DNA of 8,124 bases from Treponema sp. (GTDB lineage: Bacteria > Spirochaetota > Spirochaetia > Treponematales > Breznakiellaceae), in the NCBI GenBank assembly GCA_031273185.1, contig JAISSG010000008.1, forward strand, positions 1 through 8,124, written 5' to 3'. The notes under the pieces were generated by a model, which was not told the DNA's origin, ran no database searches, and worked only from the letters and a program-made list of their open reading frames with translations. The position numbers and the translations under genes were made by a program. Below, one piece after another: positions 3,685 to 6,258 of the stretch (position 1 is the first letter of the stretch; each line of letters opens with the position of its first letter).

Positions 3685-6258
3685 ATGAACGCCCGGGAAA
3701 ACCTTGACAGAATCCTCGAAAGCCCTGAATTTGCCCCTAACATTCTGGTGAACCGCCTGCTTCCGGCGATGGAAGGCACTTTTGCCCCCTTTCCGGCAGG
3801 CTTGGACGGCAGGATCGCCGCCGCCCTGCGGCGCAGGGGCATTGACCGGCTGTACACCCCCCCGGCGGAGGTCTGGGAAACGGCGCGGCAGGGCAAAAAC
3901 GTGGTAGTGGTAACGCCCACGGCCTCGGGCAAGACATTGTGCTACAACCTGCCCTGCCTCCAGTCCCTGCTTGCCGACGAAACCGCCCGCTGCCTGTACC
4001 TTTTCCCCACCAAGGCGCTGTCCCAGGACCAGCAGTCCGAACTGAACGAGCTTACCGGCGGCGACGACGGCCTGAACCTGAAAATCGCCACCTACGACGG
4101 CGACACGCCGGAAAGCCTGCGGGTTTCGGCGCGGGATACTAGCAGAATCATCATCACCAACCCCGATATGCTCCACGCGGGGATACTGCCCAACCACCCC
4201 AAGTGGATAAAGTTCTTTTCCCGGCTCAAGTTTGTGGTGATTGACGAGGCGCACGCCTACCGGGGCGTGCTGGGCAGCCATGTCGCCAACATTATCCGTC
4301 GCCTCCGCCGCGTCGCCGCCTTTTACGGCTCGCAGCCCCAGTTTATCCTCTGTTCGGCGACCATCGGCAACCCACGGGAACTTGCCGAGGCTCTGATCGG
4401 GCTGGAGGTCTCGCTGGTGGACAAAAACGGCGCCCCACGCGGCGAAAAGCGCATCATCCTATACAACCCGCCGCTGGTCGATGCCGTGCAGGGCATACGC
4501 CGCTCGGCAATGACCGAAAGCCGCCGCTGGATGATTGCCCTCTTAAAGGCGGGCATCAAAACAATCCTGTTCGCCCATTCCCGCATCAAGACCGAGGTCG
4601 CCGCCTCCTACGTCAACGAGGATTTGGCAAACATTTTCACCGATAATTCCCGCATACGCGTCGAGCCGTACCGTGGCGGCCTGCTCCCCAACGAACGCCG
4701 CGAAATCGAACGGGGTCTGCGGGAGGGGGACATCCAAGGGGTCGTCTCGACCAATGCCCTTGAACTGGGCATCGACATCGGCGGCCTTGACGCATCGGTT
4801 GTGGCGGGCTTTCCCGGCTCGTTCAACAGCTTCTGGCAGCAGGCAGGGCGGGCGGGCAGGCGTGGCGGCACTTCGGTTTCCGTTTTCATCGCCACCGCGT
4901 CCCCCATCGACCAGTTCATCATGAACGACCCCAACTGGTTTTTCCGCAAAAGCGCCGAGGAGGGCCGTGTTGACCCGGACAATCCGTATATTCTCACCGA
5001 CCACGTTAAATGCGCCTGCTTCGAGCTGCCATTTAGTGATGAGGAATTGGGACTGGGGACTAGGGATCAGGGAATAGGGAATGGGGAACAGGGACTAGGG
5101 ACTAGGGAATTGGGACTGGGGACTAGGGAACAGGGACTAGGGAACAGGGATCAGGGATCGGAGGCCGGGGGTCGGCGTTTGGGATTCGATAAGGCTTCCG
5201 AGAACCACCCCAATAGTTCGGACAATAAACCCCAGTCCCCAGTCCCTATTCCCCAGTCCCCTTTTGATGCTAATGCCAAAGATGCGTTGGAGTACCTGGA
5301 GGAGGCGGGCATAGTGCGGCACGCCGGGGGCAAGTGGCATTGGGCGGATCGGTCGTTTCCTGCCGAGGGGATCAGCATACGCAGTGCCACCACGGACAAC
5401 GTGGTGATCATCGACGTTACCGGCGGCAGGAATGCCGTCATCGGCGAGATGGACAGGCCCAGCGCCAAGGAGATGATCTTCAACAACGCCGTGTACATCC
5501 ACCGTGGCAGACAGTACCTCGTCGAAAATCTGGACATCGAAAACCGCAAGTGCTTGGTTCGTGAAGCCGAGGTCAATTACTTCACCGACGGCCTGGTCAA
5601 AGTTGACATAAAGGTTTTAACCGAGGATCAAAGGTTTTTAGTAGGGACTAGGGAAGAATTAGGGACTGGGGATCAGGGACTAGGGACTAGGGAGTCGGAC
5701 AACGAACCCCAGTCCCTAACCCCCAGTCCCCAGTCCCCACTTTTTGAAGTAGTCCTGTCAGACATATTGGTCCGTTCCCAGGTTGCCAAGTTCAAAAAGA
5801 TACGTTTCCATACGCACGAAAACATCGGCTACGGGGACATCGACCTGCCGGAGGAGGAAATGCAGACCCGCTCGGTGGTTCTCCTGTTTGGTTCCGACAG
5901 CGAAGGGGGCAGGGCACTTGCGTCAATGGACGAAGGCAAGATGGGTGCGGCGCTTTCCGGCATGGGGACGCTTATTCGCAACATCGCGCCGATATTCCTG
6001 CTCTGCGACCCCCGTGACCTCGGCATAGCTGAACGGGTGCGAGACCCTCACTTTTACGTTCCGGCTTTGTACGTTTATGACAAATACCCCGGCGGAACGG
6101 GTCTTGCCGAGGGGCTGTCCCGTTGCGTTAACCAACTTTTCGATACGGTTAACGAAGCCCTTGCCTCATGTCCCTGCACATCGGGTTGCCCCTCCTGCGT
6201 GGGGCCTGAGGGAAACAAGGCAGCTACCCGCGAATTTGTCCAGGCGTTGCGCTTCTAA
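3685..6258 (+). CDS. MrfA/YprA-type DEAH helicase with C-terminal zinc-binding (DUF1998) domain, carrying two in-frame repeat insertions
   Basis: Members of this superfamily-2 group (Bacillus subtilis MrfA/YprA) are 3'-5' DNA helicases with a zinc site, and MrfA acts in mitomycin-type DNA damage repair. The 857 residues carry Walker A TPTASGKT (77-84), DEAH (187-190), SAT (224-226), motif V ALELGIDIG, motif VI QQAGRAGRR (385-393), and the C-terminal zinc cluster C829-x-C831-x3-C835-x2-C838. All catalytic motifs look intact. Two low-complexity insertions, residues 455-526 and 653-685, come from heptamer elements; without them the length is about 752, matching MrfA (about 750). ATG 3685 is chosen because the protein-like N-terminus MNARENLDRIL begins there and a promoter ends just before it. 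It has no ribosome-binding site; in-frame ATG 3622 is the alternative. The helicase assignment is firm, the exact repair role inferred. Confidence 0.92.
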   Translation: MNARENLDRILESPEFAPNILVNRLLPAMEGTFAPFPAGLDGRIAAALRRRGIDRLYTPPAEVWETARQGKNVVVVTPTASGKTLCYNLPCLQSLLADETARCLYLFPTKALSQDQQSELNELTGGDDGLNLKIATYDGDTPESLRVSARDTSRIIITNPDMLHAGILPNHPKWIKFFSRLKFVVIDEAHAYRGVLGSHVANIIRRLRRVAAFYGSQPQFILCSATIGNPRELAEALIGLEVSLVDKNGAPRGEKRIILYNPPLVDAVQGIRRSAMTESRRWMIALLKAGIKTILFAHSRIKTEVAASYVNEDLANIFTDNSRIRVEPYRGGLLPNERREIERGLREGDIQGVVSTNALELGIDIGGLDASVVAGFPGSFNSFWQQAGRAGRRGGTSVSVFIATASPIDQFIMNDPNWFFRKSAEEGRVDPDNPYILTDHVKCACFELPFSDEELGLGTRDQGIGNGEQGLGTRELGLGTREQGLGNRDQGSEAGGRRLGFDKASENHPNSSDNKPQSPVPIPQSPFDANAKDALEYLEEAGIVRHAGGKWHWADRSFPAEGISIRSATTDNVVIIDVTGGRNAVIGEMDRPSAKEMIFNNAVYIHRGRQYLVENLDIENRKCLVREAEVNYFTDGLVKVDIKVLTEDQRFLVGTREELGTGDQGLGTRESDNEPQSLTPSPQSPLFEVVLSDILVRSQVAKFKKIRFHTHENIGYGDIDLPEEEMQTRSVVLLFGSDSEGGRALASMDEGKMGAALSGMGTLIRNIAPIFLLCDPRDLGIAERVRDPHFYVPALYVYDKYPGGTGLAEGLSRCVNQLFDTVNEALASCPCTSGCPSCVGPEGNKAATREFVQALRF
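5047..5261 (+). repeat. Palindromic heptamer element 1, inserted in frame in the helicase gene
   Basis: Sixteen consecutive 7-base units of the form YNGGGAN run from 5047 to 5158. A 71-base spacer (5159-5229) follows, then four and a half C-rich units (CCCCAGT CCCCAGT CCCTATT CCCCAGT CCCC, 5230-5261) that are the inverse complement of the left type. For example, 5098-5125 can pair with 5233-5260 at 25 of 28 positions. The insertion codes for a Gly/Gln/Arg-rich stretch with a 7-residue period (LGLGTRDQG...) and then a Pro/Ser/Gln stretch (PQSPVPIPQSP). Confidence 0.9.
5642..5738 (+). repeat. Palindromic heptamer element 2, shorter relative of element 1
   Basis: Seven YNGGGAN units at 5642-5694, interrupted by a 4-base GAAT (5656-5659), are followed by a 12-base spacer (TCGGACAACGAA) and C-rich units at 5707-5738 (CCCCAGT CCCTAAC CCCCAGT CCCCAGT CCCC). 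The spacer shares TCGGACAA and the following AA-CCCCAGTCCC junction with the spacer end of element 1, and the codon phase of the right arm is the same (PQSLTPSPQSP). This indicates common descent rather than independent chance repeats. Confidence 0.88.

Follow-up and report, generated by a model that had tools for sequence, protein, structure and literature searches.

Two heptamer palindromes in a helicase gene

The window analyzed here (8,124 nt of a Treponema sp. contig, JAISSG010000008.1) contains, on the + strand at 3685..6258, a gene encoding an 857-aa DEAD-box helicase of the MrfA/YprA/Hrq1 type, assigned through Pfam and its match to PDB 6znp (E 1.9e-214). The Pfam domains detected are DEAD, Helicase_C, MZB, and a partial WHD_HRQ1, the last matching in only the first 25 of its 70 positions and stopping before the first of two inserts. 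A separate gene lies at 146-1042; its product has an FGE-sulfatase domain (PF03781) and, by eye, a lipoprotein-like start.

The preliminary description of this DNA placed a palindromic heptamer element at 5047..5261, held open as protein within the helicase gene, and the parts it named are present. Element 1 (5049-5261) begins with a left arm of 16 GGGANNN heptamers at 5049..5160 (+ strand; residues about 457-493), recognizable in the sequence and by Tandem Repeats Finder (TRF), followed by a spacer or core at 5161..5229 (+), delimited from the sequence at about 5159-5229. Its right arm, at 5230..5261 (− strand), consists of inverse heptamers of the CCCCAGT type, defined by TRF and arm pairing and read in the helicase frame as PQSPVPIPQSP. 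TRF assigns period 7 to both arrays and, with a higher score, a higher-order period of 21 nt to 5049-5157. Matches to the three-unit pattern GGGANYNGGGANYNGGGA number 19 across the window; 200 dinucleotide shuffles yielded none. The whole element lies in one open frame, and all five other frames contain stops; a predicted tryptic peptide of the insert is, for example, DQGIGNGEQGLGTR.

The palindromic arrangement holds with a qualification. The two arrays are inverse to one another, the ungapped arm pairs listed at 90% complementarity are at most 31 nt long, and the 215 nt folded as single-stranded DNA reach −38.4 kcal/mol (z −2.73), a value that none of 200 shuffles equaled. The element is lopsided, however, with 16 units facing 4-5, and the bulk of the left array is unpaired. 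Five of the 15 full units of this array fall in the codon phase in which GGGACTA would read TAG, and none of these is GGGACTA, a unit that occupies 5 of the other 10; the frame stayed open in 9.1% of 20,000 random orders of the 15 units. That the unit order has been adapted to coding is a suggestive reading of these counts, not a strong one.

A second element, missed in the preliminary description, lies in frame in the same gene 0.4 kb downstream (5642-5739). Its left arm (5642..5699, +; TRF) comprises 7.9 copies of GGGACTA-type heptamers with period 7. A very short spacer with fuzzy boundaries, drawn from the sequence and TRF at 5700..5706 (+), separates it from a right arm of inverse heptamers (5707..5739, −; TRF and frame reading) that is read as PQSLTPSPQSP.

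Both inserts fall between aligned YprA blocks, in keeping with the loop or linker position proposed earlier. At insert 1, query residue 456 corresponds to 6znp chain residue 454 and query 531 to chain 458; at insert 2, query 649 corresponds to chain 577 and query 692 to chain 589. Among 120 homologues listed, the 118 longer than 700 aa were aligned, and length at both insert sites is highly variable in this set: 18 of the 118 have a long loop 1 (at least 38 residues), 13 a long loop 2, and 8 both. Heptamer elements occupy only some of these long loops, and most of the 118 homologues are without them. By eye, other repeats fill some long loops, including GNGEWGVGS...PTPHSP in P0042, P0078, and P0120 and an SREQ-type repeat in P0083. 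We saw no unrelated genus in which a homologue bears this segment at the corresponding site, and in congeners the sites are often occupied by different segments. An AlphaFold prediction with 24 sequences had a mean pLDDT of 54, and the inserts lay mostly at pLDDT 24-34 without secondary structure; much of the core was low as well, and we therefore did not use the model as proof of surface loops.

Dispersed copies and possible routes of spread

Dispersal was tested in relatives of the window, the best 80 of 187, nearly all of them labeled as Treponema or Spirochaet(ac)e(ae) bins. One of these, Treponema sp. Emb289P3bin37, carries such palindromes at both helicase sites (L001), and its 2.4-Mb metagenome-assembled genome (G001) yielded 174/189 matches to a loose heptamer pattern vs. 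12/8 for the reversed control. A strict pattern was found in 8 of the 39 genomes of this genus and was absent from 31, with counts of 131/134 in G001, 22/9 in G010, 7/6 in G007, and 6/0 in G008, and 1 to 6 matches in all in four more congeners. The reversed control was zero except in G008 (2/5), where the count is not above control. The units thus recur outside the window, in G001 and other relatives, as the preliminary description had anticipated.

We took a census of G001 (114 stretches, 1,861,012 bases), pairing G-rich and C-rich arrays within 200 nt. It returned 51 palindromes running from G array to C array, none in the opposite order, and 23 single arrays. Of the 51, 40 have a left arm and 33 a right arm of 31 nt; the spacer is 55 nt long in 20 copies and 98 nt long in 9. 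Whole copies mostly span 103-166 nt, as dispersed palindromes of about 100-200 bp. The repeat unit is a tandem heptamer of the GGGGA(C/T)T type: the first 1.07 Mb of G001 hold 108 arrays of period 7, 0 to 13 at each of the periods 4-6 and 8-13, and 79 of period 14, a multiple of seven.

The palindromes also share their centers. The twenty 55-nt class A cores have a mean column identity of 82% (10 nt of each arm included), the longer class B cores have stretches in common by eye, and the core of element 1 and that of a G001 copy (L123 10090-10204) both contain, by eye, ACCCCAATAGTTCG. A DNA search of 195 family genomes with the class A core matched G001 alone at E ≤ 1e-5; it recovered just 4 of G001's own copies and is therefore strict. 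By eye, G039 also has a class A-like core (L181). Elsewhere, heptamers stand beside other repeats in two stretches of G003 (L105 and L093), including a CGTCATTGCGAGCGGAGCGAAGCAATCC fold-back, and heptamer arms surround a GGETSPLSS-like repeat at L263 8300-8457 and an AGDTPATPP-like repeat in the valyl-tRNA synthetase (ValS) loop of L186, as if one element lay inside another.

Could the heptamers have grown in place, by slippage in hypervariable loops and with no movement between loci? In favor of this, arrays differ in length by multiples of 7, heptamer arrays turn up in viral contigs, a Nostoc plasmid, and unrelated genomes, and G007 and G008 contain long single arrays without a partner. Slippage does not, however, create an inverse partner at a distance of 55 or 98 nt, with the same polarity in 51 of 51 cases, nor the conserved cores that recur in unrelated genes. 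Because such cores are shared between unrelated places, in-place slippage is disfavored, and we consider it improbable.

Copies that lie close together tend to resemble one another. Mean identity is 0.636 in the 11 G001 pairs less than 2.5 kb apart and 0.536 in the remaining 1264 pairs, a difference reached in 17 of 10,000 permutations. Of the 11, 4 score lower than distant pairs do on average; the most alike are those at the helicase sites (94%), in L117 (93%), and in L118 (84%). Among the eight helicase homologues with both loops long, insert likeness is 92.9 within proteins vs. 37.2 across them (0 of 10,000), a difference carried mainly by P0020 and P0078; a protein's own pair gives the best score in 4 of the 8, the window's protein not being one of them. 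These patterns would be consistent with gene conversion or with copying over short distances.

Searches for a vehicle or a transposition footprint gave negative results. No target-site duplication, a trait of MITEs, was found in the 51 flank pairs of the G001 copies at end offsets of 0-8 and lengths of 3-11 (best excess, 4/51), fuzzy element ends being able to hide a short one. Neither an exact empty site nor a mobilizing gene was found, and the G001 assembly has no match to the reverse transcriptase family PF00078, which 11 of the 39 genomes possess. No G..C pair 260-6000 nt apart, as a larger parent element would present, occurs in 55 loci. Covariation of a core hairpin was no better than in shuffles (184/500 by score, 377/500 by cells paired), and none of the 27 Rfam matches at E ≤ 1 in window 4900-5900 reached its family cut-off. 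There was no phage match for window 5000-5760 and no plasmid match for 5047-5261, and a phage or plasmid vehicle was dropped for lack of a match to the window element. The strict pattern occurs in 17 IMG/VR stretches, with spacers unrelated by eye; of the viral contigs, L323 has several GGGACTR arrays and L319 (4932-5057) a palindromic GGGACTR pair around an unrelated spacer, both apparently intergenic.

Mobilization by a RAYT/Y1 transposase, as for REPINs, is an unlikely alternative. The elements are like REPIN/RAYT systems and MITEs in that they are short inverted repeats, non-autonomous and multicopy; inverted short repeats around a spacer, the missing target duplication, and two Y1_Tnp genes in G001 speak for a REPIN. 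Against it, no GGGA array pair occurs in the 3-kb stretches around either Y1_Tnp gene, such genes are present in 4 of the 8 genomes with the strict pattern vs. 13 of the 31 without it, and none was found in the incomplete assemblies of G007 and G010. The combination of no target duplication, no RAYT association, and no larger parent in the 55 loci is unlike REPIN/RAYT and MITEs. A RAYT-like gene of G001 (L125 945-1424 and around) is flanked by a different repeat (peptide VNHLF...).

Reading frames and host loops

The preliminary description envisaged a coding repeat that spreads into genes in frame, as the Rickettsia elements do, and the G001 copies are indeed dispersed and reside in frame in unrelated genes. 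Counting as coding those whose frame is open for 150 nt on either side, 20 of the 51 qualify, whereas 1958 of 3000 randomly chosen positions do. Open frames thus hold fewer copies than expected at random, and coding residence is therefore tolerated, not preferred. Counted from the innermost GGG, one register is common to 19 of the 20 coding copies, the exception being a disrupted array (L116 15109). Per spanning frame the count is 20 of 21 (p about 1e-8 at one third per frame), a statistic helped by the fact that open frames alone can count. The common register, to which the right arms of both window elements also belong, gives the peptide GTGDWGLGTRD-core-PQSPVPSPQSP.

The G001 open reading frames that bear copies are unrelated to one another and match ValS, an RNB nuclease, HydF, PurL (GATase_5, AIRS_C), TrmD, PGM, a YjeF/Carb_kinase protein, a radical SAM protein with DUF2344, and a methyltransferase; ValS, HydF, and TrmD have a single match each in this genome. 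A copy in PriA (L277 3557-3673) lies directly before the Walker A motif and is identical in P0122. In-frame residence in unrelated genes is thus accompanied by a conserved peptide. Outside coding frames, 11 of 15 class A copies have no open frame, and some frame is open in 6 of 8 class B copies.

Protein searches extended this picture. With the G001 ValS segment as query, 2 of 9 candidates were returned, namely that ValS and PriA; with the window segment, 2 of 3156 were, the window protein and a 1003-aa ValS from a JGI source (P0123). The latter contains three in-frame segments of the GTREQ...PQSPVP type, at residues about 210-235, 490-530, and 849-910, one of them in the same ValS loop as that of G001. 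The common register suggests that the segments are translated in their host proteins. Open frames in single-match housekeeping genes likewise point to host proteins that are probably functional, and residence in such genes to proteins that would tolerate the segment.

It is very unlikely, in our view, that the palindrome is excised from RNA or skipped in translation to leave a protein without the segment. Strong fold-back arms and essential hosts such as ValS, interrupted in three places in one case, would suit removal, but removal makes an open frame unnecessary, and yet one and the same open register is common to 19 of the 20 coding copies. Most class A copies outside frames are closed, and Rfam, the sole source of intron models, gave nothing at cut-off. 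Equally hard to credit is a module that serves its host, a G-rich hairpin or disordered loop kept because it regulates helicase expression or activity: similar heptamers form G-quadruplexes in vitro (PMC4692102) and the window and L001 have both helicase loops filled, but numerous unrelated genes, and intergenic places too, harbor this element, and most homologues are without it (loop 1 is long in 18 of 118 and loop 2 in 13, not all with heptamers).

The loops that hold the element in G001 are empty or differently filled in congeners. ValS was matched in 35 of 39 genomes, and 24 of the 29 loops read from 30 loci are shorter than 25 aa. The ValS loops of G008 and G026 contain other heptamer palindromes, that of G039 a different insert, and that of G010 a short one. 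The palindrome-bearing ValS of G026 has an internal TAA elsewhere in that copy; a second ValS in this genome is empty and was split by the aligner at the insertion site. HydF was matched in 29 of 39 genomes (26 loops read, two from one genome) and TrmD in 32 of 39 (24 loops read from 30 loci). Fold-back, scored in loops of at least 25 aa, exceeded all 60 codon shuffles in 3 of 5 ValS, 3 of 9 HydF, and 7 of 17 TrmD loops. By eye, the palindrome families in these loops differ, comprising GGGACT, GGGAGT, and a CACAGAG-type octamer, and the same loops therefore appear to have been colonized repeatedly. In-frame palindromes of the CACAGAG or CGCAGAG type also occur in other genomes, in the HydF loop of L219 and the TrmD loop of L331. 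Because cores are shared between loci and loops are empty in congeners, we infer from the sequences that the element has spread between loci.

Likeness to known elements and proposed origin

Rickettsia palindromic elements (RPEs) are about 150 bp long and form ten families, with 44 copies in R. conorii and nearly half in genomic ORFs (PMC10969869), and similar in-frame inserts (WPEs) have been described in Wolbachia addA, addB, and priA (PMC4224334). The Treponema element resembles both in being a 100-200 bp palindrome present in many copies, in frame in unrelated genes and with a conserved peptide (PMC10969869, PMC4224334), and it shares priA with WPEs as a host gene (PMC4224334). Coding palindromes of nematomorph mitochondria, perfect repeats that encode conserved residues (PMC6649704), and the enterobacterial RU elements, small mobile sequences of 103-168 bp read as protein (PMC2759123), are further cases of inverted repeats or small mobile sequences translated within genes. 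The Treponema element differs from RPEs and WPEs in belonging to another phylum and in having arms made of heptamer arrays. Six insert peptides had no NCBIfam or Pfam match at E ≤ 1; NCBIfam includes RPE models. The likeness to RPEs and WPEs is one of anatomy and behavior.

Cyanobacterial heptamer repeats are named STRRs, and the Calothrix unit is CCCCAGT. The proposed cyanobacterial likeness is borne out by a Treponema unit that equals the Nostoc heptamer GGGGA(C/T)T (PMC4692102). In the accessible text of that source, Nostoc has few inverted pairs, inverted pairs of the Xanthomonas heptamer GGGAATC are frequent (70 and 75 cases), both heptamers lie mostly outside genes, heptamers of related type fold as G-quadruplexes in vitro, and neither a conserved core nor a shared reading register, as in the Treponema element, is reported (PMC4692102). 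By analogy, the Treponema arms may be capable of forming G-quadruplexes. Over 32 nt, a right arm from G001 matches Nostoc plasmid NZ_CP091914.1 (L355 1501-1532) exactly; the plasmid stretch is part of an in-frame C-rich array inside an annotated NB-ARC gene, an array that reads as SQSPVPSPQSLVPSPQSP and has no inverse partner nearby in the stretch examined. The arms are thus a cross-phylum G-rich heptamer, as in Nostoc and Xanthomonas.

We consider it likely that elements 1 and 2 are each a copy of one protein-coding palindromic element, non-autonomous and dispersed, that belongs to termite-gut treponemes and is RPE/WPE-like in anatomy and behavior and new in sequence and host. This element consists of a GGGACTR-type left arm, a core (in G001, from 55 to about 98 nt), and an inverse-heptamer right arm, and would spread by copying, partly over short distances. 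Copies in genes would survive only in open frames and in tolerant loops of the host protein, and the translated segment, Gly/Arg/Asp-rich and then Pro/Gln/Ser-rich, would probably be a disordered loop. The arms may later lengthen by slippage; in the window, the steps would be of three heptamers (21 nt, seven codons), with the frame kept and TAG avoided.

A broader possibility, which we offer tentatively and do not favor at present, is a general process in termite-gut treponemes rather than the burst of one element. Several unrelated short-unit palindrome families (GGGACT and GGGAGT heptamers, the CACAGAG-type octamer), together with the AGDTPATPP repeat, would recurrently enter the same housekeeping-enzyme loops in frame. 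They would copy preferentially nearby, through host replication or recombination at fold-back or G-quadruplex DNA and without a transposase, and would thereby supply proteins with new loops time and again.

Most known cases of protein-coding palindromes come from two genera of obligate intracellular bacteria, Rickettsia and Wolbachia; one report adds an archaeon, Methanocaldococcus jannaschii (PMC2996958). In the open-access literature searched we found no report of them in spirochetes. Their occurrence in gut spirochetes and in essential enzymes, with three in one ValS, suggests that the phenomenon is broader. The finding brings together two puzzling phenomena, the coding palindromes and the G-rich heptamers shared across phyla, and the lineage-specific copies, empty congener loops, and likeness of neighboring copies offer handles on how the element spreads and how proteins gain segments.
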